Virus record (IMG/VR): IMGVR_UViG_3300044841_000066
Coordinates: 1-64,000 of that record
Origin: a virus
DNA length: 64,000 bases
Direction: 5' to 3' (one strand)
Positions 8,208 through 29,414 of this stretch are shown here, in pieces. Each line of letters begins with the position of its first letter. The stretch's first letter is position 1. The notes under the pieces were generated by a model. That model ran no database searches and was not told the origin of the DNA. It saw only the letters and a list, made by a program, of their open reading frames with translations. A program made the position numbers and the translations under genes.

Positions 8208-8957
8208 TTGCCCGATCGCAGCTCAATTACCAACCATGTCGTTGTATTCAGCGGCGGCATGGACTCGTTCACCCTCTTGCATAGTGTCCTCCGGCAAGAA
8301 GTTACCATTCCGCTTGACAATATCTACGCGCTGTCTTTTAACTACGGCCAGCGTCATAAGCGCGAGTTGAGCGCGGCAAAGATTGTATGCGATCGGCATG
8401 GCGTTTCGCAGCACTTCATCTCCCTGGCATTCCTGAATGATCTGTCGCCGATCTCAGCGCTGACCAGCGATACCCCGGTCCCGCATGGTCACTATGCGGC
8501 GCCATCCATGAAGCAGACGGTTGTACCGGGGCGCAATACGATCATGCTGGCGGCGGCATTGGCGTTTGCCGAGGGCCTCGATCCGGATCGTCCTGGCATC
8601 ATCTATTATGGCGCACATTCCGGCGATCATGACATCTACCCGGATTGCCGGCCAGCCTATATCGAGGCGATGCAGGCGGTTGTCTATACAGCCACCGAAG
8701 GCCGCGTCATCCTCCGCGCGCCTTTCATGGACATGACCAAGGGCGACATCCTCAAGCATGGGTTGAACATCGGCCTGCTGGCGGAGAATTATCGGAATAC
8801 CTGGACCTGCTATGCCGGCGGCGCAGTGTCATGTGGCAAATGCGGTTCATGCACCGAACGCCTGCTTGCGTTTGACGAGGCGGGCATGATCGATCCCTTG
8901 GAATATCAGGATCGCGATAGCTACAAAGCGCAGGCCAAAGACGATCCAACCGCGTAA
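8208..8957 (+). CDS. queC: 7-cyano-7-deazaguanine (preQ0) synthase QueC
   Basis: Converts 7-carboxy-7-deazaguanine to preQ0 with ATP and ammonia. It is 249 aa, near the family length. The PP-loop SGGMDS is at residues 16-21, followed by FNYGQRHKRELSAAK. The C-terminus carries the four-Cys zinc site (WTCYAGG, then CGKCGSC), complete here. Translation starts at TTG 8208, 7-8 nt after AGGAG; no ATG fits. No glutaminase (GAT) domain is fused, unlike the GAT-QueC proteins tied to archaeosine-type DNA. It is a core gene of the deazaguanine pathway with folE (9876), queF (20968), queD-like (28341) and queE (28668). Confidence 0.95.
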   Translation: MPDRSSITNHVVVFSGGMDSFTLLHSVLRQEVTIPLDNIYALSFNYGQRHKRELSAAKIVCDRHGVSQHFISLAFLNDLSPISALTSDTPVPHGHYAAPSMKQTVVPGRNTIMLAAALAFAEGLDPDRPGIIYYGAHSGDHDIYPDCRPAYIEAMQAVVYTATEGRVILRAPFMDMTKGDILKHGLNIGLLAENYRNTWTCYAGGAVSCGKCGSCTERLLAFDEAGMIDPLEYQDRDSYKAQAKDDPTA

Positions 8958-8997
8958 CGGGTTGATAATAAACCGAAATTTTAGTTGAAAAAATCGC

Positions 8998-9032
8998 TTG
9001 CAACAGATAGACCAACCCGCTATCTGTTGCAA
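8998..9032. promoter_or_regulatory. Perfect 13-bp dyad overlapping a TTGCAA-17-TATCTG promoter
   Basis: TTGCAACAGATAG (8998-9010) and its exact complement (9020-9032) flank a 9-nt spacer. The same bases form TTGCAA (8998-9003), a 17-bp spacer, and TATCTG (9021-9026), a promoter in the phage's own style for the gene at 9094. As a palindrome it also reads as a promoter on the other strand. Promoter and operator are therefore superimposed. Confidence 0.65.
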
Positions 9033-9093
9033 CGCAGTAAGGAAATCCCATCTGCGCGGAATTGCCCGCTCCCAGCATAAGGAACTCGATCCC

Positions 9094-9774
9094 ATGGCCA
9101 AGAAACCCGCCGCCTCCAAGGCGACCCATGACAAGCTCAAGGCCGCCGCGCCGGCCGCTGAGACGGCAACGACCACTCACGAGGCCGCCGTCGAGGCATC
9201 GACTGAGCGCATGGTCGATGAGGCGCTGAACGCGCAGAAGAATTCCGACCCGATCCTGGTCCACGATGAGCTGCTCGACATGGCGCGCGGTATCAAGGCC
9301 GATTTCGCTGATCAGGGCACCAAGGAAGACGACAAGACCTATCTCTGCCGGTTGATGGAAGTCATCTCTGATCTCGACGACCCCACTTTCGACACCATGC
9401 AGCAGAAGACCCAGGATTGGTACAACGACACAGCGCGTGCCGAGTCCACGAGCAAGCCCTGGCCGCATGGCAACCCCGAGGGCTTCAGCTCCAAGTTCGG
9501 TGGCAAGGCCGACGCCAAGGCGCCCAAGGCACCCAAGGCCGCCGCTGAGAAGGCGCCCAAGGCCGCCAAGGCACCGCCGCCGGCCAAGGGACCGAGCATC
9601 ACCCTCAAGGTGCGCGAACTCGTCTGCGCCAATCCCGGCATGAAGCTCGAAGAGCTGGAAAAGCAGCTTGCCGCTGTCGGCCATGTCGTCAAGAAATCGA
9701 CGACCTCGACGATCCGCTCCGATGTTCTCGCGACAATCCAGGCCGCCAAGAATGTCGGGGTCTGGAAAAGCTAA
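9094..9774 (+). CDS. Histone-like Lys/Ala-rich protein with C-terminal HTH-like domain
   Basis: 226 aa from ATG 9094 (ribosome site AAGGAA). The N-terminus is Lys/Ala-rich (MAKKPAASKATHDKLKAAAP), the centre is an acidic helical domain (residues 50-125), and residues 145-170 are a Lys-Ala-Pro linker like histone H1 tails. The last 60 residues resemble a winged helix (LVCANPGMKLEELEKQL, then TSTIRSDVLATIQAAKN). A nucleoid- or phage-DNA-binding role is inferred. The expression unit is separate, with the dyad promoter upstream and a hairpin downstream. The THDKLKAA peptide recurs at the start of FolE. Confidence 0.6.
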   Translation: MAKKPAASKATHDKLKAAAPAAETATTTHEAAVEASTERMVDEALNAQKNSDPILVHDELLDMARGIKADFADQGTKEDDKTYLCRLMEVISDLDDPTFDTMQQKTQDWYNDTARAESTSKPWPHGNPEGFSSKFGGKADAKAPKAPKAAAEKAPKAAKAPPPAKGPSITLKVRELVCANPGMKLEELEKQLAAVGHVVKKSTTSTIRSDVLATIQAAKNVGVWKS

Positions 9775-9797
9775 GCCTTCCCGTCCTGACTGATCCC

Positions 9798-9833
9798 ATT
9801 ACCGCCGCCCGGCACCAGCTAGGCGGCGGTAAT
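9798..9833 (+). terminator. Strong hairpin after the histone-like gene
   Basis: ATTACCGCCGCC (9798-9809) pairs exactly with 9822-9833 around a 12-nt loop. The tract after it (GTTGTCT) is only partly T-rich, so termination may be incomplete and some folE transcription may come from upstream. Confidence 0.6.
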
Positions 9834-9844
9834 GTTGTCTGGGG

Positions 9845-9852
9845 TATATATC
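9845..9852 (+). promoter_or_regulatory. TATATATC -10-like element before folE
   Basis: GGGGTATATATCC lies about 25 bp before the folE start. It shares the TATATC core with other leaders in the window, but no TTGC -35 is seen 17 bp upstream. Confidence 0.35.
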
Positions 9853-9875
9853 CAGGCAAGAGAGGATACGCCCGC

Positions 9876-10520
9876 ATGCAGCCGACCCACGACAAGCTCA
9901 AAGCCGCCGTCAGCCTACCGTCACCAACGCGTGCCGAGGCGCTGACAGCGGTCAGGACGTTGATCGCCTATATCGGGGACGATCCCCAACGCGAAGGCCT
10001 GCTGGATACGCCAGAGCGCGTGTTAAAGGCATGGGGCAAGGATTGGGGGCGCGGCTATCAGGAGATCGCGCCGGCCGATCTGATCCGCACCTTCGAGGGG
10101 CAACATAACCCCGCTTACCTGCATCCGGCGCCGCGCCGCTATGACCAGATGGTCGTTGTCAAGAACATCGACATCTTCAGTTGCTGCGAGCACCACATGG
10201 CGCCGTTCTTTGGCCGCGCGCATATCGCCTATGTGCCGGGGAGCAAGGGGTTGGTCGGCCTATCCAAGCTGGCGCGGGTGGCGGATCATTTCTCGCGCCG
10301 GCTTCAGGTGCAAGAGCGGTTGACCGAGCAGGTGGCCGGCTTCTTGGCTGAGCACCTATCCCCGCATATCGCTGTCATGCTCGCCTGCACCCATCTATGC
10401 ATGGTCAGCCGGGGCGTGCAGCAGGCGCATTCGATTACTCAGACAACCGCATTGCGGGGAGACTTTTACAATGATCCGACCACGAGGGCGGAGTTCCTCC
10501 GCGCCTGCCCCGTCGCCTAA
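9876..10520 (+). CDS. folE: GTP cyclohydrolase I (FolE)
   Basis: Converts GTP to 7,8-dihydroneopterin triphosphate, the first step toward preQ0. It is 214 aa, the normal length for type I enzymes. The zinc and catalytic residues are visible: FSCCEHHMAPFFG (Cys and His-His near residue 105), GLSKLARVADHFSRRLQVQERLTEQ, and a C-terminal ACTHLCMVSRGV with the second zinc Cys. AGAGGA precedes ATG 9876. The first 15 residues (MQPTHDKLKAAVS) resemble the N-terminus of the preceding histone-like protein. The end overlaps the DpdA-like gene by 50 bp, which supports a joint role in DNA modification rather than folate supply. Confidence 0.95.
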   Translation: MQPTHDKLKAAVSLPSPTRAEALTAVRTLIAYIGDDPQREGLLDTPERVLKAWGKDWGRGYQEIAPADLIRTFEGQHNPAYLHPAPRRYDQMVVVKNIDIFSCCEHHMAPFFGRAHIAYVPGSKGLVGLSKLARVADHFSRRLQVQERLTEQVAGFLAEHLSPHIAVMLACTHLCMVSRGVQQAHSITQTTALRGDFYNDPTTRAEFLRACPVA

Positions 10521-11556
10521 ATGCAACATAATTTTGGATAGTGGGGCGTATAGCGCGTGGCGGTCCGGCAAGCCGATCGATCTGGATAAGTACTGCGACT
10601 ACCTGCTGGCCAACACGGATTGGATCGGGAGCTATGTCGCGCTCGATGTGATCAATCCCGGCAATCCTGAGGCGGCGGCCAAGGCCAGCTTTGATAACTA
10701 CGAGCATATGCGAGCGCGCGGCCTCGATCCGATCCCTGTCTACCATGTCGGCGAGGACATCTCCTGGCTCTACCGCATGCTGGATGCCGGCGCCTCCTAT
10801 ATCGGGTTGTCGGCCAGCTCACTGGTCAGCCGCAACAAGGTGGATGATTGGTATGCGCTGGCATGGTCGCATTTGGTTAACTCCGAAGGCTTGCCGATCA
10901 TCAAGGCGCATGCCTTCGGGGAGGGGCGCCCGGCCAGCCTCAAGCAATTCCCTTGGTACTCGGCGGATACCACAAGCTGGATTTACACTGCACAAAGAAC
11001 GGGTCAGGTGACCTTGCCGGATGGCCAGAGCCTGTCGATGCGGAACGATGGCGGCGGGTCGAAGTCGGCACCGGCCGCCGACGGCTTGCCCGAGATCGAG
11101 CGCGCCATATTCGACGAGCTGCTCAAAGATGCCAAGATCAACCCGGCGGCATTCCAGGCCGAGGGGATCACCGCCAAGCTGATCCGCACCTACCTGACAG
11201 CGATCTACTACCTACGCTGCCAGGATGCGGTGCGCGCCATGCATCCGATCCGCCATCAACCTGTCGGGTTCTTTCACAATGGCTTCTCGGCCGCGCCCAA
11301 GATCAGCTTTAAGGAATTCAACTTTCACTTGGTGATCGGCACCAACGACACAGCATACGCGGTGATTGCCAAGCTCTTGCATCCGAATGTGTTGATTTCC
11401 TACTTCATGCTGGCCGGGGTCGATCCGATCCGCCAAGCAACGAACGGGCATCTCGTCAAGCTCCTCAGTCAATTCGCCGCTGATCCGGTGGCGGCGGTCA
11501 AGGCTGAGGACCGCTGGAACCGCTATTGGGTTATTTTGGAGGAATATGTGAAATGA
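10471..11556 (+). CDS. dpdA: DpdA-like DNA transglycosylase (TGT superfamily), copy 1
   Basis: 361 aa, candidate enzyme that swaps guanine in DNA for a 7-deazaguanine base. A TGT-like start, IILDSGAYSAW, puts an Asp at residue 23 in the place of the TGT Asp in DSGGFQ. GSYVALDVI and then DPIPVYHVGEDISWLYRM follow the barrel order, with GASYIGLSAS next. SADTTSW (Asp166) is a good candidate for the nucleophile. The second half (residues 230-361) is helical and may contact DNA. It overlaps folE by 50 bp and its stop overlaps the clamp gene by 4 bp. A later start near residue 18 is possible. Family assignment is strong; the exact base is inferred from the pathway. Confidence 0.82.
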   Translation: MIRPRGRSSSAPAPSPKCNIILDSGAYSAWRSGKPIDLDKYCDYLLANTDWIGSYVALDVINPGNPEAAAKASFDNYEHMRARGLDPIPVYHVGEDISWLYRMLDAGASYIGLSASSLVSRNKVDDWYALAWSHLVNSEGLPIIKAHAFGEGRPASLKQFPWYSADTTSWIYTAQRTGQVTLPDGQSLSMRNDGGGSKSAPAADGLPEIERAIFDELLKDAKINPAAFQAEGITAKLIRTYLTAIYYLRCQDAVRAMHPIRHQPVGFFHNGFSAAPKISFKEFNFHLVIGTNDTAYAVIAKLLHPNVLISYFMLAGVDPIRQATNGHLVKLLSQFAADPVAAVKAEDRWNRYWVILEEYVK

Positions 11557-12623
11557 TTGCCGCCCATCTTGCCGCCTGCCTTGCACCGTTCGCCCAGCTC
11601 GCGAACAAGCACGCCCTATCGGATGTCTACAAGTGCATCGAGGTGCAGCCGCAGCTCGTGCGCGGCTGCTCACAATACGGCGTGCTTGAGGCCTCGCTGT
11701 CGATCGGCATTCCGGAAACGATCTGGATCGACGCGCTGATCTTTACCTCCGTCCTCAAGTCGTTGCCCGACAAAGAGGAAGTCGTCTTCGTGTTGAAATC
11801 CGGCGCGCTCGAGTGGGAGTGCGGCATGGCCACGGGCAAATTGGCGATCATGGCGGCGCAAAAGATACCGCTCATCGATCCGGCGTCGTTGCCCAAAGAC
11901 GCACCATGGACGCCCACCGAGAGCTTTATCGACGCGCTGGAATTGGGCGCCCTGGCCTGCGGCTCGGTCGGCATGGCCAGCGCTGGGGTCTATGGCGTTG
12001 TACTGGATAATCGCGCCGACTTCCGCATCGTGTCCTCGGACAATGTGACGGTGGCCTCGTGCCGGGTCTCCGATCGGGTCGCTACCTTCCCCGAACGCAT
12101 CACGCTGTCGCCCGATGCCGCCGCCATGCTGGATACGATACTGAACAATGACGCCAAGGAAGCCAAGCTCAGCATCGGCGAGAACATCGTTTACTGCGTC
12201 AACAAGGCGTTCCGGCTGCTGCTCCGGCCCATCCCAGCGGTCAAGCATGATCTCCGTGCCCTGACCGATAACTACGCGTCTGCTGACAGCGTGGCGGAAA
12301 TCCCGCGCGAGCGTCTCGTCGCCTTTATCAAGCGATCGGCCGCGCTGAGTGAAAACAAGGGACAGACCTATGTTACGCTTGCGGCGGCCGAGGGCGCGCT
12401 GTCGCTGTCGTTTGCCGAGGGCGCGGCATCCTCGGACGAATACTATCTGGTCAAGGACTTGGCGGTGCCGACCTTGCCCGAGATCAAGCTGGACGCGGGC
12501 CGGGTGGCGCGGGTATTGTCGCATGCTAATGAGATCGTGCTCGACCATATCGAGCGCAAGGTATTGATCTTTCGCGGCATGAACCCGCCTTTCCTCTATA
12601 TGGTGGCCGGACGCTCGGAGTAA
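11553..12623 (+). CDS. Sliding-clamp-like protein (DnaN-type beta clamp)
   Basis: 356 aa, close to the 366 aa of bacterial beta clamps. ATG 11553 forms an ATGA overlap with the DpdA-like gene and follows GGAGGA. The sequence has three roughly equal alpha-beta parts with clamp-like elements (LEASLSIGIPETIWI, FERITLSPDAAAMLD-like central helix, EIVLDHIERKVLIFR near the end, FLYMVAG as the final strand). The assignment is supported by the dnaX-like clamp loader gene at 18234. Sequence conservation is low, so another replisome protein cannot be ruled out. Confidence 0.6.
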   Translation: MIAAHLAACLAPFAQLANKHALSDVYKCIEVQPQLVRGCSQYGVLEASLSIGIPETIWIDALIFTSVLKSLPDKEEVVFVLKSGALEWECGMATGKLAIMAAQKIPLIDPASLPKDAPWTPTESFIDALELGALACGSVGMASAGVYGVVLDNRADFRIVSSDNVTVASCRVSDRVATFPERITLSPDAAAMLDTILNNDAKEAKLSIGENIVYCVNKAFRLLLRPIPAVKHDLRALTDNYASADSVAEIPRERLVAFIKRSAALSENKGQTYVTLAAAEGALSLSFAEGAASSDEYYLVKDLAVPTLPEIKLDAGRVARVLSHANEIVLDHIERKVLIFRGMNPPFLYMVAGRSE

Positions 12624-12628
12624 CAGAC

Positions 12629-12832
12629 ATGGTTCGGGGTAATTTCGAAACGCTAAAGCAACTCGATACGCTGCTCATGATGCCCTACCTTGAGGTAGTA
12701 GCAAGACAGATCGCTGCGGATACAATGCGATTGGTTGCGGATAAGCATGGTCTGCGCTTACCCGATGATCTTTGGCAACAAGCGATCGGCAAAGCCCAAG
12801 AGAAAATTGCCAATGATTTCGGGTTGAAGTAG
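12629..12832 (+). CDS. Hypothetical 67-aa helical protein
   Basis: Begins MVRGNFETLKQLDTLLMMP, all helix, neutral to basic. It lies between the clamp and methyltransferase genes with gaps of 4-5 bp. No family recognised. Confidence 0.55.
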   Translation: MVRGNFETLKQLDTLLMMPYLEVVARQIAADTMRLVADKHGLRLPDDLWQQAIGKAQEKIANDFGLK

Positions 12833-12836
12833 GCGA

Positions 12837-13778
12837 ATGGGCTTTTTTGACATACCAGTAGAGACAACAATCGAGCATCCCGACTGCTCGATTGTTGTGG
12901 GCAATTGCCTGGATATCCTACCCACGCTGGCCGCAAGTTCGGCGCAAAGCTGCGTCACCTCGCCACCCTATTTCGGTCTGCGCGACTACGGCGTTGATGG
13001 GCAGATCGGGCTTGAGCCATCGCCGGACGAATATGTCGCTGAGCTGGTCAAGGTGTTTCGCGGGGTCTGGCGCGTCTTGCGCGATGACGGGACACTATGG
13101 CTCAACCTGGGTGATAGTTATTGCACCACCGCGCCTGGAAGTATAGTCGATCCTGCAAAAATGACAGGCATACATGTGCATAAGGGTGCCTATAGAAGAC
13201 CTGAAACACCGCCGGGTCTAAAACCAAAAGACCTGATCGGCATTCCCTGGCGCGTCGCCTTCGCCTTGCAAGCGGACGGTTGGTATCTGCGCAGCGGCAT
13301 TGTCTGGAACAAACTTAACCCCATGCCCGAAAGTGCCACAGATCGGCCAACATCATCGTATGAAATGGTCTTTCTCATGAGCAAGGCGGTGCAGTATTAC
13401 TATGATGCCGCCGCAATTGCTGAGCTTTCTGTGGACGAAGGGCGCCCGAGCGGACCAAAAAGCGATCCAAGTCGCAATGACGGCAATCGTACAGGGATAA
13501 TCAAAGGAAATGGCGCTACGCGTAACGCACGCAATGTCTGGACTATTTCCACATTACCATATGATGGCGCCCATTTCGCCGTCATGCCGCCGGCACTCGC
13601 TGGACGCTGCATCAAGGCGGGCAGCAGGCCGGGCGATCTGATCCTCGATCCATTCGGCGGTGCGGCAACAACGGGATTGGCGGCGGCGCAGCTTGGTCGC
13701 AAGGCCATGCTGATCGAACTCAATCCGGCGTCGGCCAAGCTCGGGCGCGAGCGCGTCGCCAGAGAGCTGTATCGCTGA
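12837..13778 (+). CDS. Beta-class DNA methyltransferase (N4-cytosine or N6-adenine)
   Basis: 313 aa SAM-dependent DNA methyltransferase. The catalytic motif IV TSPPYFGLRDYG is near residue 42, and the SAM-binding motif I DPFGGAATTGLAAAQLGR is near residue 265; this order is that of the beta class. SPPY fits N4-cytosine enzymes but also some N6-adenine ones. The target region lies between, residues 110-240. No restriction endonuclease is adjacent, so it is an orphan enzyme for self-protection or regulation. The stop overlaps the polymerase start (TGATG). The first residues MGFF are shared with the polymerase start. Confidence 0.9.
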   Translation: MGFFDIPVETTIEHPDCSIVVGNCLDILPTLAASSAQSCVTSPPYFGLRDYGVDGQIGLEPSPDEYVAELVKVFRGVWRVLRDDGTLWLNLGDSYCTTAPGSIVDPAKMTGIHVHKGAYRRPETPPGLKPKDLIGIPWRVAFALQADGWYLRSGIVWNKLNPMPESATDRPTSSYEMVFLMSKAVQYYYDAAAIAELSVDEGRPSGPKSDPSRNDGNRTGIIKGNGATRNARNVWTISTLPYDGAHFAVMPPALAGRCIKAGSRPGDLILDPFGGAATTGLAAAQLGRKAMLIELNPASAKLGRERVARELYR

Positions 13779-16700
13779 TGGGCTTCTTTGCGCCGGATGT
13801 TGTCGAGAAGCCGGCTGAGCAGAAACGCCCGGTCGGTCGCGCCCCGAAAGCCGCCAAGGGCTTTGACAATAACGCAAGAGGCTGCGACAATTGCGCGCTG
13901 AAGGCGAACTGGAGTTGGGTGACAACATCGCGTATGCCACTATCCGGCAACACGCGGAACCCGGATATCCTCATACTCGGTGAGAACCCGGATGAGGAAG
14001 ACGACAAGAAAGGGATAACCTTCATTGGTGCCGCCGGCAATCGGCTCCGCCGGGCCATTCCAGGGCGTGAACTGGAACGCTGCGCATTCGTCCACATGAC
14101 GCGCTGCCGTGTGCGCAATGACGCCCGCCCCTCAGCACATGATGTGCATTCCTGCTCGACCCATCTTGAGGACGACATCGCGCGCTTACCGATCAAGGCG
14201 ATCATCGGGATAGGGCCGGTACCGCTGGCGCGGTTCTTCCCCGGCGCGCAGATAACCCGCATGCATGGCCTGCGTTTCCCCGTTCAGATCGGCGGCAAGA
14301 TACTATGGTATTACCCGATCTTTGCGCCGTCCTATATCGAGGGAACGGGAGGCGATCGATCCGCCGCCCTCCCCCAGCTCAAGGCCGATGTAAAGCGGTT
14401 CTTCGCGGAGGTCGATCGCTGGGGTGCGCCGCGCATCTGGAAGCCTGATCCGGACGATGTCTTACTGCCCAAGACGCTTGAGGATGCGCAGGAAATCCTC
14501 GATGCCATGCAAGGCCGACTGGGGATCGACATCGAGACAACAGGATTACGCTTTGCCGTCAAGGATGCGCAGATACTGACCGCCGCGATCAGCGACGGCG
14601 AGATCACGATGTCTTTCGCTTGCGCGCATCCCGAGGCACCGACCGATTGGGGCCTCGATTTCCTCTTGCATGTTTTGGAGCACTATAAGTGGGTACCGCA
14701 TAATGCGGTCTTTGAACTTGTGTGGTTATTGCATGCGCGCAATCAGAAAGGTTTAACCTTCGAGCCGGCGCATTACGAGGACTCGATGGCGATCGGGCGC
14801 ATCCTCCATGAGCGTGCCGGAATGCTCGGCCTGGACGATATGTCGCGGATGCATCTCGGTGCCGACTTCAAGGCAGCGGTTAAGGTCAATCGCAACAATA
14901 TCATCAACGAACCATTAGAGCGCGTCCTGCCCTATAACGGCCTGGATGCCCAAGCATGCGTGTTATTGTGCAAGCATCTACGCAAACGCCTACGCGGCAA
15001 GGATGAAAGCAACTATATCCGGCTCTTGAATTCCACGCGTTCATTTGCCGAGATGGAGCTGCGCGGTCTGGACATCGATATTCAGGCCGCCAAGGACTTG
15101 AAAGAGCATTGGGGCGGCTTGCTCAAGGAGGCATCGGAGAACGCGCGAACGATTTACGAAGTGCGCGAGTTCGAGCGCGTCAAGCAGATCGAGTTCAACA
15201 TAGGCTCGAATGAGCATATCGGCGAAGCGCTCGTTGAGTTCGGCCGCCTTGTGTTGCCGAAGACCAATAAGGGACAGGGCAAAACCTGGAGCACCGACGA
15301 CCAGGAGTTGCAGAAATACGAGGATAACCCGCTCGTTAAGGCGGTGCTGGCCTATCGCGAGGCGCAGCGGATCGAGAGCACCTATATTGATCCGGTCATG
15401 GCCGCCTATGAGAACAATTTCGATCAGCGCTTGCACCCGTCTTACACATGCATGCACACCGAGACCGGGCGGCCATCCAGTGAGGCGCCGAATATCCAGA
15501 ACTTCCCTAAGCGCAAGCATCGCGAAGTCAGGTTGATGGTTGTCGCCCCGTCTGGCCACATCATTGTATCGTTTGATTACGGGCAGATCGAGGCGCGCGG
15601 TTTCTGCTTTGCAACAAAGGATCGCCAGCTCTGCGAGGATACAATTAAAGGCCAGGATATTCATTCGCGCTGGCGCGATCGTTCGCTCGAACTCCATCCT
15701 GACTATATTATCCGGTTGGCCGAGAAGACCAATGAAACCGAAGAAAAGCTGATCCTTAAAGGTGGCCGCGACATCATCAAGACAGATTTTGTATTTGCCT
15801 CGTTCTTTGGCTCGACCGCGCGCTCTGTGGCTGAGCGGACAGGCCTACCGTTGAATGTTGCCGAGAAGATGTTGGCCGAGTTCTGGAAGCGCTATCCCGG
15901 CGTGCTGGCCTGGGTCAAGGCCAAGCGCAAGGAATACCAGGATACCGGATCAGCACGCACCTTGACGGGCATGGTCCGGCATCAGACGCTGTGGGGGAAC
16001 GAGCCGCTCAATTGTGTGGATTATGAGACAGAGGCATTAACACAGCGCGGATGGGTGAATGGTGCTGACTTAAGAGCCGGCGATGTTCTTTTAACAATGA
16101 GCGCTGAGCGTCAAATGCTTGAGTGGCAATCCGCCACCGATGTAAAGCAATATCCAGAATACGAAGGTGTTGTGCATAGGTTGGACGGCAAGAGTTTTAG
16201 CGTAGCGACAACCCCAAATCATCGTTGGGCGTATCAGAAAGACTCTTCTACTGACTTTTCATTCTATGAGGCCACAACGGAGACATTGCCGAAATGGGGA
16301 TCGATCCCACGAATTCGCCCATACAATGCGCCGAGCAAGGCGGCGTATTCCGATGACTGGATAAGACTTGTTGGTTGGGTATTGACAGATGGTTGCTATA
16401 CGAACAAGACAAGCGATGCGCCGAGCTGGGATTATAGGCGAACAAAGGCTAACGGCTATTCAGGCAGTCAAGTAGCTGTATGTCAGAAGAAGAGCGGCAA
16501 TATTGCTGAGCTGGACGCGTTGTTCAAGCGTTTGCCTTTTCCGTCTAGAACAAAGCTCGCGCACAATAGAGCCGAAGATGAGGAACTATTCTGGACTTTC
16601 AGTGGTTTGCCAGGACAATGGTTTTATGGTAATTTTCCGGATCGTGTTCTAAGGCCTGAATTCTTACTTCAGCTCCCCAAGGAACAGCTCATCATTCTTT

Positions 16701-17362
16701 ACGATACGATGATCAAGGGTGATGGCTGGATAGACAATGGTCGTGAGGCGCTTTGCGCCGGCACAGCGCGCAAGGATCAGGTCGATGCCTTTCAAATGCT
16801 GGGAGTGCTGTGTGGACGCCTGACTTCAGTCTATTACGATGATCTGACCAAATATGCGAGCGACAAGCTATATCCAAGCATGGACAATATCCCAAAAGCA
16901 ACGGGCGGTTGGGTAGCTAAGCGTACGGTTCGCGAAAATGTAAGCCTCGGTTGGCTCAAGAGATCGAGCGCTGTAGAGAAACTAGGCATGTGGTGCCCTA
17001 TGGTGCCCAATACTTTCTTTGTGGCTCGTCGCAAAGGTAAAGTATTCATAACCGGTAATACCCCTATCCAGGGCACGACAACCGGGCATATGGTGCTAGA
17101 GGCGCAGAACGCCTTGGCCGCGCTATCCCGTGAGAAGAATGATCCATACTTACACCCTCGGATCAATATACATGACGACCTTTCCTTCATCCTTCCTGAC
17201 GACCCCGATTTGCTTGAGGCCTACATTAAGCTGATCGCTGCTGAGCTAGTCAAAATTCGTTTTGATTTCCAAATAGTACCGCTCATGGTAGAAGCAAAAG
17301 TAGGGTATACATGGGCTGAGCTGATAGAGTGCGGTGAGTTTATCGGAGATTATATAAGGTAA
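13778..17362 (+). CDS. polA: UDG-like / 3'-5' exonuclease / family A DNA polymerase fusion, intein-containing
   Basis: 1194 codons, 845 aa after splicing. Residues 25-210 resemble a family 4-type uracil-DNA glycosylase: four-Cys cluster elements (GCDNCALK), ILGENPDEEDDKKG, then AIIGIGPVPLARFF and FAPSYIEG. A DnaQ-like exonuclease follows with DIET (Asp251, Glu253), HNAVFE (Asn309; Glu313 where Asp is usual) and YNGLDA (Asp390). Polymerase motif A is FDYGQIEAR (Asp600), the O-helix is RDIIKTDFVFASFFG, and motif C is IHDDLSF (Asp1133, Asp1134; usual form HDE). An intein occupies residues 746-1094. It is the replicative polymerase by context with clamp, loader, helicase and primase. A UDG module fused to a replicase is unusual; whether it keeps activity is unknown. 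Confidence 0.92.
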   Translation: MGFFAPDVVEKPAEQKRPVGRAPKAAKGFDNNARGCDNCALKANWSWVTTSRMPLSGNTRNPDILILGENPDEEDDKKGITFIGAAGNRLRRAIPGRELERCAFVHMTRCRVRNDARPSAHDVHSCSTHLEDDIARLPIKAIIGIGPVPLARFFPGAQITRMHGLRFPVQIGGKILWYYPIFAPSYIEGTGGDRSAALPQLKADVKRFFAEVDRWGAPRIWKPDPDDVLLPKTLEDAQEILDAMQGRLGIDIETTGLRFAVKDAQILTAAISDGEITMSFACAHPEAPTDWGLDFLLHVLEHYKWVPHNAVFELVWLLHARNQKGLTFEPAHYEDSMAIGRILHERAGMLGLDDMSRMHLGADFKAAVKVNRNNIINEPLERVLPYNGLDAQACVLLCKHLRKRLRGKDESNYIRLLNSTRSFAEMELRGLDIDIQAAKDLKEHWGGLLKEASENARTIYEVREFERVKQIEFNIGSNEHIGEALVEFGRLVLPKTNKGQGKTWSTDDQELQKYEDNPLVKAVLAYREAQRIESTYIDPVMAAYENNFDQRLHPSYTCMHTETGRPSSEAPNIQNFPKRKHREVRLMVVAPSGHIIVSFDYGQIEARGFCFATKDRQLCEDTIKGQDIHSRWRDRSLELHPDYIIRLAEKTNETEEKLILKGGRDIIKTDFVFASFFGSTARSVAERTGLPLNVAEKMLAEFWKRYPGVLAWVKAKRKEYQDTGSARTLTGMVRHQTLWGNEPLNCVDYETEALTQRGWVNGADLRAGDVLLTMSAERQMLEWQSATDVKQYPEYEGVVHRLDGKSFSVATTPNHRWAYQKDSSTDFSFYEATTETLPKWGSIPRIRPYNAPSKAAYSDDWIRLVGWVLTDGCYTNKTSDAPSWDYRRTKANGYSGSQVAVCQKKSGNIAELDALFKRLPFPSRTKLAHNRAEDEELFWTFSGLPGQWFYGNFPDRVLRPEFLLQLPKEQLIILYDTMIKGDGWIDNGREALCAGTARKDQVDAFQMLGVLCGRLTSVYYDDLTKYASDKLYPSMDNIPKATGGWVAKRTVRENVSLGWLKRSSAVEKLGMWCPMVPNTFFVARRKGKVFITGNTPIQGTTTGHMVLEAQNALAALSREKNDPYLHPRINIHDDLSFILPDDPDLLEAYIKLIAAELVKIRFDFQIVPLMVEAKVGYTWAELIECGEFIGDYIR
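16013..17059 (+). mobile_element. LAGLIDADG intein inside the DNA polymerase
   Basis: 349 codons in frame. It begins with Cys (residue 746) after NEPLN and ends VFITGN before Thr-Pro-Ile-Gln-Gly, so splicing restores LNTPIQGTTTGH, the conserved motif between O-helix and motif C. Splicing blocks are visible: a Gly-rich N-terminal block (GWVNGADLRAGDVLL), TPNH as the TxxH block, and a C-terminal FFVARRKGKVFITGN. The usual penultimate His is replaced by Gly. Two LAGLIDADG-like motifs (LVGWVLTDGCYT and LYDTMIKGDGWIDNG) mark a homing endonuclease that looks complete. The DNA is visibly more AT-rich than its surroundings, a sign of recent arrival. Confidence 0.93.
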
Positions 17363-17367
17363 AATCT

Positions 17368-17877
17368 ATGCCAATAGGAATTCCACTACAGTTAGTGGGA
17401 CAACGCTTTTCCAGGCTTTTAGTTGAAGAAAAGGCGCTTAGTAGAGGCAAAAAGGGAAGCTTAATGGCTTACTGGCGATGTCGCTGCGATTGTGGCAATG
17501 TCTCTGAGTTCCAAGGCGATGTTCTTATTAGGGGCGTTGTGCATTCTTGTGGTTGTTATAAGCGTGAACGAGCCAAAGAAGTGCACACAAAGCATGGTAT
17601 GTCGGGGACTCCAATCTATGCGGCATGGCATGAAATGCTAGAGCGTTGTAAAAATCCCAAACATGAGTCCTACGCTAATTATGGCGGGCGAGGTATAAAG
17701 GTCTGCGAACGTTGGCATAAGTTCACAAACTTTTTCTTGGATATGGGAAATAGGCCTGAAGGTATGTGGATAGAGAGAAAAAATAACGACTTGGGCTACT
17801 CTCCTGACAATTGCATATGGGCCACTCCTACACAAAATCTAAACAATCGTAGACCAAGAAAAAGGAAGTCACAGTAA
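17368..17877 (+). CDS. HNH-like (AP2/homing-type) nuclease with zinc ribbon
   Basis: 169 aa of a widespread phage family. The N-terminus carries a zinc-ribbon-like segment (WRCRCDCGN, then HSCGCYKRERAKE). The core reads HGMSGTPIYAAWHEMLERC, NYGGRGIKVCERW, then NNDLGYSPDNCIWATPTQN, with the terminal block resembling the metal-binding end of HNH nucleases. Members are usually annotated as HNH endonucleases or AP2-type DNA-binding proteins, and many behave as free-standing homing genes. It starts 6 bp after the intein-bearing polymerase and shares its AT-rich composition, so both may have arrived together. Nuclease activity is likely but not proven by sequence. Confidence 0.7.
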   Translation: MPIGIPLQLVGQRFSRLLVEEKALSRGKKGSLMAYWRCRCDCGNVSEFQGDVLIRGVVHSCGCYKRERAKEVHTKHGMSGTPIYAAWHEMLERCKNPKHESYANYGGRGIKVCERWHKFTNFFLDMGNRPEGMWIERKNNDLGYSPDNCIWATPTQNLNNRRPRKRKSQ

Positions 17878-20967: not shown

Positions 20968-21459
20968 ATGACCAACAAAGAAACGCCGGTTCTTGGCCGG
21001 CGGGTGGAAATGCCCACCAATCCGCATTCGTTTTTCATCGATACCGTTCTCGCTCCGTTGCCTCCATTACCTGATCCAGGTAGCGGTGTTACATTCGTTC
21101 GTCGGGCGTCGATGATGGCGCGCTTTTCCTGTCCCGAATTCACCTCTCTCTGTCCTGTAACGGGTCAGCCGGATTACGCCCACATCATCATCGACTATGT
21201 GCCGAAAGCCCTGCTGATCGAGAGTAAATCGCTGAAACTGTTCCTGACCTCGTTCCGCAATCATGGGGCCTATCACGAGGCGTGCACCTGCCTGATCGGG
21301 GATCGCCTATGGCAAGCGGCCGAACCCGCCTGGATGCGCGTCAACGCCTACTGGTTCCCGCGTGGCGGCATCCCGATCGATGTGTTCTGGGAATGCGGTG
21401 AGCGTCCGGAACGCCTTGTCGTGCCGCCGATCGACATCCCCAGCTACCGCGCCCGCTAA
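20968..21459 (+). CDS. queF: preQ0 reductase QueF
   Basis: NADPH-dependent reductase that turns preQ0 (nitrile) into preQ1 (aminomethyl), 163 aa, matching the single-domain YkvM-type QueF. The catalytic Cys lies in FTSLCPVTGQPDYAHI, and the diagnostic block ESKSLKLFLTSFRNHGAYHE with its NADPH-binding ESKS motif is intact. It lies between the SSB and RecA genes, 8 bp after the former, so it is expressed with replication genes. Its presence means the pathway can go beyond preQ0, predicting preQ1-type bases, assuming the transglycosylase accepts preQ1. Confidence 0.95.
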   Translation: MTNKETPVLGRRVEMPTNPHSFFIDTVLAPLPPLPDPGSGVTFVRRASMMARFSCPEFTSLCPVTGQPDYAHIIIDYVPKALLIESKSLKLFLTSFRNHGAYHEACTCLIGDRLWQAAEPAWMRVNAYWFPRGGIPIDVFWECGERPERLVVPPIDIPSYRAR

Positions 21460-21470
21460 GGATCAAGCCA

Positions 21471-22484: not shown

Positions 22485-22486
22485 GA

Positions 22487-22699: not shown

Positions 22700-22700
22700 G

Positions 22701-23081
22701 ATGCGCTTTCTCGTCTGCGGCGGCCAAACCTACGGAACTGAGCGCGACGAGGATCGCTTTCTTTACGCCGCCCTTACGCGTTTGTATGACAAGGTTGGGA
22801 TTACTGCTATTATCCACGGTGCCTGTCATACACCCATCAACGCGGATAAGCTCGCAGGTCAGTGGGCGCGCGATTTCGGCATTATTGAGCACGCCTATCC
22901 GGTAGATCACGCACTAGATGGGCCGTGGCCAGCCGCCGGGAATGTGCGCAATCACCGCATGCTTTATGACAAAGATAGTCGGCCGGATGGCGGTGTCTCT
23001 TTTCCCGGTGGCAATGGAACCAAACACATGACCGATCTCATGCGCAAAGCCGGGCTTATCGTATGGGAGCCAAGACGTTGA
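22701..23081 (+). CDS. DUF2493/SLOG-family protein
   Basis: 126 aa Rossmann-type protein. MRFLVCGGQTYG at the start, IIHGACHTPINADKLAGQWARDFG in the middle (usual form HGA-GAD-LA-WA), AYPVDHALDGPWPAAGNVRNHRML, and FPGGNGTKHMTDLMRKAGL give the full order of the DUF2493 (YspA-like) family in the SLOG superfamily. Such proteins are thought to bind nucleotides or nucleotide-sugar ligands; in phages the role is unknown. One could propose sensing or hydrolysis of a base or ADP-ribose derivative given the neighbours. Confidence 0.8.
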   Translation: MRFLVCGGQTYGTERDEDRFLYAALTRLYDKVGITAIIHGACHTPINADKLAGQWARDFGIIEHAYPVDHALDGPWPAAGNVRNHRMLYDKDSRPDGGVSFPGGNGTKHMTDLMRKAGLIVWEPRR

Positions 23082-23638
23082 GGGCCGGGGGAGGCAAGGA
23101 AAAGGGTTCTAGTTGGGAACGCGAAGTCGGCAAGGCGCTGTCCTTGTGGCTGACAGCTGGCGAGCGCCCCGACATCTTCTCACGCAATGTGCTCTCGGGC
23201 GGGTCGTTTACCCAGGCGCAGAGCCGTGGTAATCGATCGAGCCGGATGCCGGGGGACCTGATGGCCGCACATCCGCTGGCCTTCCGCTTCATGGAGCACT
23301 ATGCGGTAGAGTGCAAGCATCTGGCGACCCTGGGTCTTGAGGCTTTTCTATTCGACGACAAGAGCGCGTGCGAATTGTCCAAGATCATCATGTATGCCAA
23401 TGGGCAAGCGCAGCAAGCCGGCCTCGAATACATGATCGTCGCCAAGCAGAACCGGCGTGATCCATTCGTAATCACAACAGGTGAGATCGGCGCCCGTATC
23501 CTGGCCGCCGCGCGCGTAGGTCGGGTACGCTTGCAGCCGCCGCATCATTGGTTGCATCGTCGTCGGGTGTTCATGATGAAGTTCGAGTATATGACAGGGA
23601 CGATTGACCCCGATCTACTCTTGAGCGCGACAAAGTGA
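23063..23638 (+). CDS. PD-(D/E)XK-type nuclease, possible Holliday-junction resolvase
   Basis: 191 aa. GGKEKGSSWEREVGKALSLW at the N-terminus matches the start helix of phage resolvase-like nucleases; RMPGDLMAAHP supplies the catalytic Asp, and YAVECKH the E-x-K pair. The order E...GD...ExK is that of the PD-(D/E)XK fold. It overlaps the SLOG gene by 19 bp and the second DpdA-like gene by 4 bp. A role in resolving recombination intermediates fits its place among recA and sbcCD, but DNA end trimming is an alternative. Confidence 0.6.
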   Translation: MGAKTLRAGGGKEKGSSWEREVGKALSLWLTAGERPDIFSRNVLSGGSFTQAQSRGNRSSRMPGDLMAAHPLAFRFMEHYAVECKHLATLGLEAFLFDDKSACELSKIIMYANGQAQQAGLEYMIVAKQNRRDPFVITTGEIGARILAAARVGRVRLQPPHHWLHRRRVFMMKFEYMTGTIDPDLLLSATK

Positions 23639-24258
23639 TTGCCTACGCATCTGTTACAGGATCGAGCCGGAATAAGCAGGCCATCGAGGCCGCTGGATGG
23701 CATTGGCTGTTCACGCCTGGAGCAGCCAGGGACGGGTATACGCCCTATGCGCTAGATAATGGCGCGTGGCGGGCGTTCAAGGCAAAACAGGCGCTCGATC
23801 TTGTGGCTTTTCAGCGGATGCTGGACAGGTTTGGTCAGAATGCCGAATTCATCATTTTACCGGATATTGTGGGCGAAGGTGAACGATCCTTAGAACTAAC
23901 GCTGGAGTGGCTTCCCAAGTGTCGCGGACACCGCCAATTACTGATTGCTGTTCAGAATGGCATTGAGCCGGCGATGATCGCGCCCTATCTGGCGCCCGAT
24001 GTCGGTATATTCCTGGGTGGCGATACTGACTGGAAGTTGGAAACAGGCGCGCAATGGGGCAAACTCGCCGAAAAGCATGACGTCTATTTTCATGTCGGCC
24101 GGGTCAATACCGCACAGCGCATTATTTGGTGTTCGCAGATCGGCGCCGATAGCTTCGACGGCACATCGGCCTCGCGTTATTCGAAGACAGTAAAGAGCCT
24201 ATGCAATGCCATGAAGCAACCAAGTATATTAAGATTAGCTTCTGAGGTAATGCTATGA
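23635..24258 (+). CDS. DpdA-like transglycosylase (TGT superfamily), copy 2
   Basis: 207 aa, shorter than copy 1. It starts at GTG 23635, overlapping the preceding stop. YALDNGAWRAF puts an Asp (residue 41) in the TGT position of DSGG; AEFIILPDIVGEGERSLELT, LLIAVQNGIEP, GIFLGGDTDWK, YFHVGRVNTAQRI and GADSFDGT continue in the order of phage TGT/DpdA-like barrels. It differs strongly from the 10471 protein. It could be the actual DNA transglycosylase, a partner subunit, or act at another sequence context. Family level is fairly secure; the division of labour is unknown. Confidence 0.7.
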   Translation: MIAYASVTGSSRNKQAIEAAGWHWLFTPGAARDGYTPYALDNGAWRAFKAKQALDLVAFQRMLDRFGQNAEFIILPDIVGEGERSLELTLEWLPKCRGHRQLLIAVQNGIEPAMIAPYLAPDVGIFLGGDTDWKLETGAQWGKLAEKHDVYFHVGRVNTAQRIIWCSQIGADSFDGTSASRYSKTVKSLCNAMKQPSILRLASEVML

Positions 24259-25250
24259 TCCTGACCGCGGACTTACACTTGACGGACGCCCCACAAGACG
24301 AATACCGATGGGCGATCTTTGACCATCTCCTCAGATTGGCCAAAGAGGAAACCGACAGCGAGATCGTAATCCTCGGTGACATCACCGACCGCAAGGATCG
24401 GCACAGCTCGATCCTTGTCAATCGCCTGATGATGGCGCTGCGCAAGCTGCTGGATGCCGGCAATAGCGTCACAATCCTGATGGGCAATCATGACAAGCCA
24501 TTGGCGGGAACCCCGTTCTGGCAATTCCTCGATCTGTTGGAAAGCCGCAAGCTGAGGTTTATCACAAAGCCGCTTTCCTATGGTGGCGATCTCTATTTGC
24601 CTTATGCCGGCAATCCGGCCGAAGAGTGGAATGGCATCAAGCTGAGCGGACATACGACCATCTTTATGCATCAGACGGTGACCGGCGCCTTGGGCAATAA
24701 CGGGATCAGGCTCGAAAACAACAAGATGGTCGAGTTCCCGCGCGGCGCCAAGGTCTACTCAGGGGATATTCATACCCCACAAGTCGTTGGCCGGGTGACC
24801 TATGTCGGTGCCCCGCATCATGTGGCTTTCGGCGACGACTACGAGTGCCGGATACTTGTGCTCGACGCCAAGGCGAACATTCGGCGCGTTGTCCAGCTAT
24901 CGCCGCCGGCCAAGCGCATGCTGCGCGTCGGCTCGATCGCGGAACTGGAACGCCGGCCTGTCTGCAAGGGCGATCAGGCGCGCGTCATCTACAAGCTGAC
25001 CCTAAACGACATTGATCGCTGGCCGGCTATTCAGGACCAAATCACGATGTGGGCTGAGGAACACGGGATCATCCTGGCTTCCGTTGAGCCGGATATCGAG
25101 GGCCTTGTCCGCGATCAGGACGCCGACGCTGAGTTGCCCGACTTCGATATTGATCCCGAGTCGGTGCTCAAGATGTTTGCCGAGGCCGAAGGTATAGACG
25201 CCTCGATGCTCGATGTCGGGTTGATATTCTTGCGAGAAGGCGTTGGTTGA
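24255..25250 (+). CDS. sbcD: SbcD/Mre11-like nuclease (T4 gp47 type)
   Basis: 331 aa calcineurin-like phosphoesterase. The metal-binding motifs are all visible in order: ADLHLTDAP near the start, GDITDRKDRH, GNHDKP, FMHQTVTG and SGDIHTPQ. The C-terminal 100 residues would bind the SbcC coiled coil. With the SbcC-like protein at 25679 it forms the double-strand end processing complex. Starts with an ATGA-type overlap after the DpdA-like gene. Only the NADAR gene separates it from its partner. Confidence 0.92.
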   Translation: MILTADLHLTDAPQDEYRWAIFDHLLRLAKEETDSEIVILGDITDRKDRHSSILVNRLMMALRKLLDAGNSVTILMGNHDKPLAGTPFWQFLDLLESRKLRFITKPLSYGGDLYLPYAGNPAEEWNGIKLSGHTTIFMHQTVTGALGNNGIRLENNKMVEFPRGAKVYSGDIHTPQVVGRVTYVGAPHHVAFGDDYECRILVLDAKANIRRVVQLSPPAKRMLRVGSIAELERRPVCKGDQARVIYKLTLNDIDRWPAIQDQITMWAEEHGIILASVEPDIEGLVRDQDADAELPDFDIDPESVLKMFAEAEGIDASMLDVGLIFLREGVG

Positions 25251-25675
25251 TGAGCCAGATCGACAATTTCAAGGGTCAATATGCCTTTTTGTCTAATTTC
25301 GGCAAGTATACCATTGCCTGGAAAGGCGCGCGCTTTCCTACCCTGGAACATGCCTACCAATGGGCGAAAGCGACCAACGATGTGGATCGTGCGGCTATCG
25401 CGAGTGCGCAAACCCCCGGCGATGCCAAGCGCGCCGGCCGACGCTGCACAATACGCGCGGATTGGGATCAAGTCAAAAACGACATCATGCTTGAGCTGTT
25501 GCGCATCAAGTTCAAGAACGACTACTTGGCCTATCTGCTGATATGCACCGGCGACGCTGAGCTGATCGAGGGCAACACCTGGGGTGATGTCTACTGGGGC
25601 GTCTGCAAGGGCGTTGGACAGAATATGCTCGGCAAGCTGCTCATGCAGGTTCGCCGCGAAATAGAAGAGAACTGA
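25250..25675 (+). CDS. NADAR-family protein (YbiA-like)
   Basis: 141 aa. The NADAR pattern is complete: FKGQYAFLSNFGKYTIAW, FPTLEHAYQWAKA, TPGDAKRAGRRC, LLRIKFKNDYLAYLLICTGDAELIEGN and the WGDVYWGVCKGVGQN block. Members hydrolyse N-glycosidic bonds, and some remove ADP-ribose from guanine in nucleic acids and act as antitoxins to DarT-like toxins. In a phage that alters its guanines and lies next to recombination genes, a counter-defence role against DNA ADP-ribosylation is a reasonable hypothesis. ATG 25250 overlaps the sbcD stop; the preceding in-frame TTG is less likely. Confidence 0.9.
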   Translation: MSQIDNFKGQYAFLSNFGKYTIAWKGARFPTLEHAYQWAKATNDVDRAAIASAQTPGDAKRAGRRCTIRADWDQVKNDIMLELLRIKFKNDYLAYLLICTGDAELIEGNTWGDVYWGVCKGVGQNMLGKLLMQVRREIEEN

Positions 25676-25678
25676 TCA

Positions 25679-27472: not shown

Positions 27473-27493
27473 TGCCCGGCCTGTCGGTATATC
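27465..27493 (+). promoter_or_regulatory. TATATC promoter with overlapping dyad
   Basis: TGCGTT (27465-27470) lies 17 bp before TATATC (27488-27493). CCTGTCG (27480-27486) pairs with CGACAGG downstream (27507-27513), so the -10 lies inside the dyad. It serves the gene at 27532, whose start is 38 bp further. Confidence 0.55.
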
Positions 27494-27531
27494 TATTCGA
27501 GACATCGACAGGATAACAATAGGGGTAGCAC

Positions 27532-28086
27532 ATGCGCGCTTTCGAGCTTATCGAGCGACTGATTAATTCCGACCACGCGACCATCATGGTGCACGATCTG
27601 ACGGGCCACCTCGTCGAGCCAAAGGTGACAGTCACGCCGACCCCGGATGGGATCAGGCTGGTGATCGAGCCAGCGACGAACTCGATCACCAAGCGCGCCG
27701 CCGATCCGCTGTCGCTGAACGCTTATCAGGACTACGCCTATGCCGAGGCGATCTATCCTGAGCGCGGCAAAGGGACAACAGCGAGCATCTCGCTTGTCCT
27801 GGCCGGCTTGCTTGGCGAGAGCGGCAAAGCCATGCACTCCTGGTTTGATACGATGCGCGGCGGCAAGCCGCTGACCCAGGATACCAAGGACGAGCTAGTC
27901 ACTGCATTGGCGCACTCGTTTTGGTATGTGGCGGCGCTGGCGCAAGAGCTTGGGGTGCCACTATCCCAAATCGGCGCGCAGAGCATCCGGCAAGCGCGGG
28001 CGTGGCGGCGGGCGACCGAGCTGGCCGAGCGTCAGGGCGATCTACGTCCCCAGAGCACGCGCATGGCGGCGGCGGGTGATAGCTGA
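27532..28086 (+). CDS. MazG-like protein with altered metal-site residues
   Basis: 184 aa. The pattern LNAYQDYAYAEAIYPERGKG, then LAGLLGESGKAMHSW and LVTALAHSFWYVAALAQELG, is that of MazG-like NTP pyrophosphohydrolases. However, the usual GE-GE pair reads GESGK, and the usual ELGDVLWY reads ALAHSFWY, so metal ligands seem lost. It may bind nucleotides without cleaving them, or act on another substrate. It is first in a unit that includes queD-like, queE and the helicases. A ribosome site is not strong (AATAGGGG). Confidence 0.6.
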   Translation: MRAFELIERLINSDHATIMVHDLTGHLVEPKVTVTPTPDGIRLVIEPATNSITKRAADPLSLNAYQDYAYAEAIYPERGKGTTASISLVLAGLLGESGKAMHSWFDTMRGGKPLTQDTKDELVTALAHSFWYVAALAQELGVPLSQIGAQSIRQARAWRRATELAERQGDLRPQSTRMAAAGDS

Positions 28087-28107
28087 TCCAATAGGGAGGG
28101 ATCGCGC

Positions 28108-28341
28108 ATGATTAAAGCAAAAGGCACCGATGCCGATGGAAGGAAGACCCTAGTTCTCGGGCTTTCTTTCCAGAACCTTAAACGTCTACAGGCCGGCGAT
28201 CCTATCGTTTTCGCAGCAGACGAATACGGTTACGCCGGAACCATCATGCTTTTCGCCGGCAAAGACGAAGCCACTATGGCGAAAATGCTGACAGAGGGTA
28301 ACCCCGGCATTAAGACTCATTTTGAGAAAGGGGATAGCTGA
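28108..28341 (+). CDS. Hypothetical 77-aa protein
   Basis: AGGGAGGG precedes ATG 28108. Alpha-beta small protein (KTLVLGLSFQNLKRLQAGDP, then AGTIMLFAGKDEATMAKML). Its stop overlaps the queD-like start (TGATG), so translation is probably coupled. No family recognised. Confidence 0.6.
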   Translation: MIKAKGTDADGRKTLVLGLSFQNLKRLQAGDPIVFAADEYGYAGTIMLFAGKDEATMAKMLTEGNPGIKTHFEKGDS

Positions 28342-28643
28342 TGCCCTACATTGGCCGCATGGCATCGGTGTCGCTAGAGATCGCCCATCTCGGTGAGGAT
28401 GGCGTCATGCATGGGCACAGCCTGATCGCTGAGGTCTGGACGCATGCGGATACCTGCCTGGATGCTTGGCGGGCCAAGATCGTTGCCACAACCGCGCACA
28501 TCAATCTGGGACAGCTCGAAACGACGATCTTCGCGCGGACTTTCGAGGATGTGGCCATCTGGATACTGGATGCCATGCCGGAGGCCTACCGCGTTGTCAT
28601 CCGTCTGCCGACCTATGGCCACGCGATCGAGGTATATCGCTAG
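28341..28643 (+). CDS. Divergent QueD-like protein (6-pyruvoyl-tetrahydropterin synthase fold)
   Basis: 100 aa, shorter than the usual 120. SLEIAH followed by HGHSLIAEV keeps the three zinc-binding His of QueD. INLGQLETTIFARTFEDVAIWI matches the LN-x-PT-E-A-W block of the family, and RLPTYGHAIEVY the C-terminal strand. The catalytic Cys before HGH is absent (GVMHGH), and the LDH pair reads TAH, so the active site is altered. It sits directly before queE, as queD does in hosts. It may form 6-carboxytetrahydropterin by a changed mechanism, or the host enzyme may supply this step. Confidence 0.6.
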   Translation: MPYIGRMASVSLEIAHLGEDGVMHGHSLIAEVWTHADTCLDAWRAKIVATTAHINLGQLETTIFARTFEDVAIWILDAMPEAYRVVIRLPTYGHAIEVYR

Positions 28644-28667
28644 GCCTAATCACAAAGGGATACGCCT

Positions 28668-29414
28668 ATGTACGGAAAAAATAGCGTCGCCAAAGCGCGC
28701 ACCGCGGATGACGGCTTTCTGGTCCACTCAATCTTCTATACCTTGCAGGGAGAGGGGCCTTTCGCGGGCTTGCCGGCGATCTTCCTGCGGCTCGCCAACT
28801 GCAATCTGCGCTGTTTTTTCTGTGACACAGAATTTGAGAAGGTTAGCGCGTTAGCCGGCGGCGGCCACTATAGCGCGGATGTTTTGGGACAGAAATTGGT
28901 CGCGCTTATGCTAAAGCACCGCTGTGAGCTGATCGTGATCACGGGTGGCGAACCGATGTTACAGCCGCTGCCTTCGCTTTTCGACTCTTTCGCGGATATG
29001 GAGGTGCGCTTTCAGATCGAGACAGCCGGCACCTGCTGGCCCGAGGGCTTGGAAAGCTGGTTCGGTGACGATAATTTCCTCACGATCGTGACCTCGCCAA
29101 AGACGGGCAGGGTGCTTGCTGAGATCGAGAAGTATACCAACGCCTGGAAATACATCATTCGGGCCGGCGAGACGGATGACGAGGATGGTCTGCCAAATGG
29201 TTCGACCCAGCTCATCGGCTCGAAGACTAGGCTTTACCGGCCGGATGGGTTAGGCTCTTTCGCTGACTTCGATCGGCGCTGCATCTTTGTCCAACCCTGC
29301 GATGAAGCCGGCATCCATAAGGGCCGGGCCAATGTCGAGGAGGCCGCGCGGATCGCCATGAAATACGGCTATCGGCTTAGCCTACAGCTGCACAAGATCG
29401 CAGGCTTGGACTAA
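28668..29414 (+). CDS. queE: 7-carboxy-7-deazaguanine synthase QueE
   Basis: Radical SAM enzyme, 248 aa, that contracts 6-carboxytetrahydropterin to 7-carboxy-7-deazaguanine. The start HSIFYTLQGEGPFAGLPAIF and the cluster motif CNLRCFFCDTEF (CxxxCxxC) are typical of QueE. ITGGEPMLQP is the SAM-binding GGEP motif; VTSPKTG and the final SLQLHKIAGLD complete the family pattern. It follows the queD-like gene by 24 bp. Together with folE, queC and queF it completes synthesis of preQ1 except for the doubtful QueD step. Confidence 0.95.
   Translation: MYGKNSVAKARTADDGFLVHSIFYTLQGEGPFAGLPAIFLRLANCNLRCFFCDTEFEKVSALAGGGHYSADVLGQKLVALMLKHRCELIVITGGEPMLQPLPSLFDSFADMEVRFQIETAGTCWPEGLESWFGDDNFLTIVTSPKTGRVLAEIEKYTNAWKYIIRAGETDDEDGLPNGSTQLIGSKTRLYRPDGLGSFADFDRRCIFVQPCDEAGIHKGRANVEEAARIAMKYGYRLSLQLHKIAGLD

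Follow-up and report, generated by a model that had tools for sequence, protein, structure and literature searches.

Does this phage (a bacterial virus) make a 7-deazaguanine for its own DNA and, if so, which base does it insert, and by means of which enzyme? The question is raised by the window, the 64,000-nucleotide stretch analysed here, which is taken from a 68,394-base (68.4 kb) virus record and in which the genes for QueC, FolE, DpdA (which inserts 7-deazaguanines into DNA), QueF, a second TGT/DpdA-like protein and QueE are interspersed with replication genes. The reading that we favour, and consider reasonably probable as a whole, is that the phage puts a 7-deazaguanine into its own DNA, preQ1 being the likeliest, draws CPH4 from its host, uses a permuted DpdA that arose after a split, and encodes a second DpdA-like enzyme. 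FolE would form dihydroneopterin triphosphate, host QueD would provide CPH4 (the phage copy looks dead), phage QueE and QueC would yield preQ0, and phage QueF would reduce preQ0 to preQ1. DpdA would take guanine out of the DNA and insert the free base in its place, which would confer protection from restriction enzymes, and the second, minimal DpdA-like enzyme may use other sites or another base.

The gene order is common to relatives, with local variations, and runs primase, QueC, basic protein, FolE, DpdA, clamp and polymerase, followed by clamp loader, a gp32-like protein, (QueF), RecA and nuclease, and then by Mre11, Rad50, QueD, QueE and DnaB. As relatives have the same order, the scattered que genes are not peculiar to the window phage, and their spread, once read as a special sign of long integration in the replication programme, is an ordinary layout. 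In the replication block, the DNA polymerase A ORF (13778–17362, 1194 aa) has an N-terminal domain that resembles uracil-DNA glycosylases and probably contains an intein beyond about residue 734, and on its 3′ side lies a possible homing-endonuclease ORF (17368–17877) with no Pfam match. An N4/N6 DNA methyltransferase is found between clamp and polymerase (12837–13778), so that the phage may modify its DNA in a second way as well. A YAcAr/SLOG-family protein (22701–23081) adjoins the nuclease and the second DpdA-like gene, a NADAR-family protein (25247–25675) lies between the Mre11-like and Rad50-like genes, with a homologue also near DpdA in contig L145, and a NusG-like protein is phage-encoded on the minus strand (1226–1768).

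QueC (8208–8957, plus strand, 249 aa; Pfam QueC at 1.8e-55, TIGR00364 above cut-off) contains the PP-loop motif SGGxDS and a four-cysteine zinc site in its sequence. FolE, a GTP cyclohydrolase I (9876–10520, plus strand, 214 aa; Pfam 2.5e-60), has intact zinc motifs CEHH and HxxC, and the radical SAM protein QueE (28668–29414, plus strand, 248 aa; PHROG phrog_2076 at 3.4e-37, Pfam Radical_SAM) contains CxxxCxxC. All three are phage-encoded and intact as judged by Pfam, PHROGs and NCBIfam, which together also confirm QueF and hence these assignments of the original prediction. The absence of GAT-QueC likewise holds, in that Pfam reveals no amidotransferase (GAT) domain in the 249-aa QueC, which is of the canonical and not the archaeosine type. 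QueF (20968–21459, plus strand, 163 aa), a type II preQ0 nitrile reductase, scores 126.8 bits against the TIGR03139 preQ1 synthase model (cut-off 86.9), and its Cys/Asp pair (SLC...QPD) and ESKSLK reductase motif are intact, in agreement with its earlier description as an intact enzyme. The catalytic domain matches Bacillus-type QueF (PDB 4f8b) at 104.5 bits (E = 5.6e-29), whereas the match to archaeal QueF-L (PDB 5jyx) reaches 26.6 bits (E = 4.6e-5). By sequence, the window protein is nearer to QueF than to QueF-L, and is assigned as a nitrile reductase and not as a QueF-L amidinotransferase.

Because the QueF motifs are kept, GAT-QueC is absent and Streptococcus phage Dp-1 offers a precedent with dPreQ1, a preQ1-type base is the best reading, as originally predicted. 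The base could also be preQ0, since close relatives differ in whether they have QueF or GAT-QueC, and neither is seen in several contigs with a permuted DpdA. Of the relatives that share the replication block, L139 and L146 have GAT-QueC, with a weaker match in L140 and L141, and QueF is above cut-off in none of these four contigs; L142, L145 and L183 have plain QueC together with QueF. Close relatives thus appear, from their gene content, to exchange the last chemical step and to keep DpdA. We allow a smaller but appreciable chance that DpdA inserts preQ0 and that QueF acts in DNA, or acts partly, in which case the outcome would be dPreQ0, a mixture, or a more elaborate derivative (methyl- or formyl-preQ1, for example). 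The DpdA of several phages inserts preQ0, and the study concerned does not fix whether QueF precedes or follows insertion (PMC6884629). Permuted-DpdA relatives with QueC alone (L143), or with the GAT-QueC described above, point in the same direction. However, the window QueF has every motif of a full reductase, Dp-1 contains dPreQ1 only, and no formyltransferase family was matched among the part of the proteins scanned. On these grounds, dPreQ1 in the phage DNA is still the most likely product.

The protein that had been taken for a working QueD (28341–28643, plus strand, 100 aa) occupies the slot in which relatives encode QueD, between Rad50 and QueE–DnaB. The closest relatives (L212, L214, L216 and L217) have a canonical QueD before QueE and DnaB, which follows Rad50 where Rad50 is in view. 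We regard it as unlikely, although deserving of some weight, that the window protein is a functional, highly divergent QueD and that the pathway is complete. It is recognized by its slot, by alignment and by a weak match to Pfam PTPS (PF01242; E = 0.067, 13.6 bits, below the cut-off of 22.4), and in a hand-adjusted alignment to the QueDs of relatives and of Escherichia coli it keeps one His and the HGH zinc pattern. Its GC3 of 0.74 is similar to that of neighbouring genes, and it is therefore a still coding, intact gene. In contrast, the positions of E. coli Cys27, Asp70 and Glu110 are not kept in the same alignment, whereas they are kept by the QueDs of relatives at this slot, and the chain stops before the last QueD strand. 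We take these residues to be, respectively, the catalytic cysteine, the aspartate of the Asp–His pair and a pterin-binding residue. The protein has no sequence match in phages, viral contigs or the PDB, and hhalign of the lone sequence against QueD is not significant. PTPS is present in 15 of 17 related contigs, and none was found across the whole 68.4 kb record. The protein thus looks like a former QueD that has lost its activity. Since the QueD step looks lost, the description of the pathway as almost complete from GTP was overstated, while its FolE, QueE, QueC and QueF components stand. With the phage QueD apparently dead, CPH4 would come from the host, and is probably supplied by it; a host QueD is our assumption, and a scan of genome contigs gave no close relative that points to a host.

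Two TGT/DpdA-like proteins had been proposed, and both are recovered in PHROGs, as phrog_887 (1.6e-36) for the ORF at 10471 and phrog_15826 (3.2e-39; no function given in PHROGs) for that at 23635. The structure-based search suggested for them is also borne out, as the former matches TIM barrels including TGT and the latter matches TGTs. The second protein (23635–24258, plus strand) is a minimal TGT/DpdA-like protein of 207 aa with the conventional strand order. Its AlphaFold model (pLDDT 91.7, pTM 0.88) gives many TGT crystal structures in Foldseek at E <1e-3, with a TMq of ∼0.6 to the Zymomonas mobilis-type TGT. A scan of viral contigs with its single sequence gave no matches, an alignment query being needed; phrog_15826 itself occurs in at least 582 viral contigs. 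Because this family adjoins QueC, QueD, QueE or FolE in ∼28 of 80 loci, as in L109 (second TGT-QueC-QueD-QueE) and L077, the protein is probably a minimal DpdA, for which exchange of a DNA base is predicted. The gene is inserted between those for a PDDEXK nuclease and Mre11, and since 17 relatives of the window phage lack a homologue, it is, by this comparison, an addition in the lineage of the window phage. Its absence from relatives had suggested that it is unrelated to the pathway, an idea that was dropped in view of the neighbours of phrog_15826.

We consider it improbable that the pathway feeds host tRNA queuosine and not phage DNA. Free preQ1 is the usual substrate of bacterial TGT. Genes of this kind are also thought to boost queuosine in some phages (PMC6884629). 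However, the phage encodes DpdA as well as the second TGT-like protein, no tRNA genes were found in the window, and dpdA lies directly 5′ of the clamp and polymerase genes, as in known DNA-modifying phages.

The DpdA-type DNA guanine transglycosylase (10471–11556, plus strand, 361 aa) was correctly recognized as TGT/DpdA-like in the original prediction, which missed its circular permutation. Alignment of homologues places the catalytic core at residues 20–188 (10528–11034, plus strand), starting at DSGAY. Asp23 and Asp166 are invariant in 35 homologues, and presumably occupy the places of TGT Asp102 and Asp280. The protein starts at the DSGAY strand and is without the ∼45–60 preceding residues found in Dp-1 and others, so that the first barrel unit is not N-terminal to the DSGA strand as in the conventional architecture. 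Profile comparison and AlphaFold locate this unit within the C-terminal part of ∼170 residues, at residues 281–322 (11311–11436, plus strand), with a strand at 284–288, a helix at 293–302 and a strand at 306–310 that are N-terminal in conventional DpdAs. A scan of viral contigs with the single DpdA sequence gave no matches and here too an alignment query was needed; the permuted alignment retrieved full-length relatives, the best being L138 and L139 at 51–52% identity. Among 131 DpdA-like ORFs collected, the first beta-alpha-beta unit of the TIM barrel is N-terminal in 56, C-terminal in 29 (the window protein and 28 relatives from viral contigs) and found at neither end by the unit HMM in 46, this HMM having been trained on sequences that include the 131 ORFs, such that its E-values are not independent. 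Comparison of the profile of permuted C-termini with that of conventional N-termini gives E = 3.5e-5, against a best value of 0.042 in 100 column-shuffled controls, and the permuted C-terminal part matches the conventional C-terminal domain (E = 3.4e-12) and, after it, the first barrel unit. The lone window protein has no significant match to the HMM of conventional N-termini (E ∼3), and its rotation brings no gain against the full-length conventional HMM (178.0 to 178.2 bits), whereas rotation gains 4 to 7 bits for the DpdAs of L155, L166 and L024; permutation is therefore argued from the family profile together with the model.

The model of the window DpdA in its native order (35 alignment rows; pLDDT 89.8, pTM 0.89) exhibits eight core strands altogether, at 19–23, 54–56, 90–92, 110–114, 145–148 and 164–167 in the N-terminal part and at 284–288 and 306–310 from the moved unit, with two more short strands after the core (179–181 and 187–189). 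Its PDB matches are TIM barrels including TGT, and its viral matches are phage DpdAs. Judged by family profiles and the predicted fold, the window DpdA is a TIM barrel in circular permutation, with its first beta-alpha-beta unit at the C-terminus. That the C-terminal 85 residues are an unrelated add-on is very improbable, for although single-sequence matches are weak and rotation of the window protein leaves its score flat, the family profiles match, the model has its eight core strands, free-standing ORFs of the unit adjoin DpdAs that are without it, and the core deprived of these residues would have no first barrel unit. Elsewhere, three tandem DpdA-like genes occur at L024:9944-13239, two permuted and the middle one without the DSGA motif, and L144 and L148 have two DpdA-like genes each.

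In many cases, a DpdA that lacks the unit has it encoded in a small ORF directly 3′ of dpdA, usually with an overlap of 4 bases between the two genes (L016, L161, L165, L174, L184, L193, L197, L202 and other contigs). With the unit HMM, 25 of 120 DpdA loci yield a total of 36 such small ORFs, each on the same strand as dpdA, whereas 79 control loci yield none. An HMM built from conventional N-termini alone detects 13 in 12 loci, again with none in the controls. Profile comparisons relate the small ORFs to conventional N-termini (7.6e-7) and to permuted C-termini (5.4e-11), with no match to conventional C-termini. A tree of the core domain places the window DpdA in a clade of 11 permuted rows (support 100/99; bootstrap not fully settled), requires four changes for the permuted state, at least three of them forced by starred branches, and puts the permuted L183 near the split forms L161, L154 and L171. 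The simplest history is probably fission followed by fusion, in which the first beta-alpha-beta unit of an ancestor would have split off as a small downstream gene and would later have joined the DpdA C-terminus. At least two small ORFs resembling the first barrel unit occur per locus in L168, L169, L177, L185 and L165. It is conceivable, though we doubt it, that DpdA is modular, with a constant barrel body and separately encoded, exchangeable first-barrel units; if so, the units would change the insertion site or the base, with several per genome in L168, L169, L177 and L185, and the window DpdA would be a fixed fusion of the body and one unit.

The permuted and split DpdAs are the new feature here, the kind of pathway being known. 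Whole, split and permuted DpdAs in phages would form a natural series that illustrates how fission and fusion can turn a TIM barrel into its circular permutant. Annotation by the conserved DpdA core alone overlooks a needed small part, and a cloned split-type DpdA may fail in tests if the small ORF is left out. With QueD degenerate and the rest of the pathway kept, reliance on host queuosine genes is predicted.

No permuted or split DpdA architecture was found in the DpdA literature searched; a 2023 paper on subfamilies lay outside that search, and priority is thus not certain. This paper reportedly names later DpdA subfamilies and further modifications. The DpdA-like tRNA-guanine transglycosylases of the actinophages StevieRay (gp54) and Sonali (gp81) belong to the same family (phrog_15826) as the second window protein; in Sonali, a second DpdA and preQ0 genes are present as well. 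Sphingomonas phage vB_StuS_MMDA13 resembles the window in encoding DpdA, FolE, QueD, a QueF-like protein, canonical QueC and QueE; in contrast, its genes are clustered, its QueF-like protein is read by the authors as an archaeosine synthase, and a permuted DpdA is not reported (PMC7472734). The nearest isolate by major capsid protein (57% identical), Edwardsiella phage vB_EpM_ZHS, shares with the window QueC, FolE, DpdA, clamp, polymerase, clamp loader, RecA and nuclease genes. Its QueE and PTPS lie elsewhere in the genome, the PTPS being of normal length, unlike the QueD-slot protein of the window, and QueF is not annotated within the stretch examined. The ZHS DpdA (ZHS_65), whose annotation probably begins at too late a start, has no C-terminal fusion and, from an upstream start, gains an N-terminal unit-like stretch; a split DpdA in this phage, which we had considered, is thus probably wrong. 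A free-standing DpdA-unit-like ORF is present as ZHS_63 (annotated hypothetical; L003:18259-18543). The pathway itself is already known, because Dp-1 has FolE, QueC, QueF and DpdA with preQ1 in its DNA, where dPreQ1 amounts to ∼1.7% of G and no dG+ is present (PMC6884629). In both phages, FolE, QueE, QueC, a reductase-type QueF and DpdA are phage-encoded, no GAT domain occurs, and dpdA is near the clamp gene. Dp-1 has its genes in a cluster (QueF-QueC-QueD-QueE-FolE-QueT-DpdA; PMC6884629), with a canonical QueD, a transporter and a DpdA of conventional order, whereas the window phage has spread genes, a degenerate QueD, a permuted DpdA and a second DpdA-like gene.
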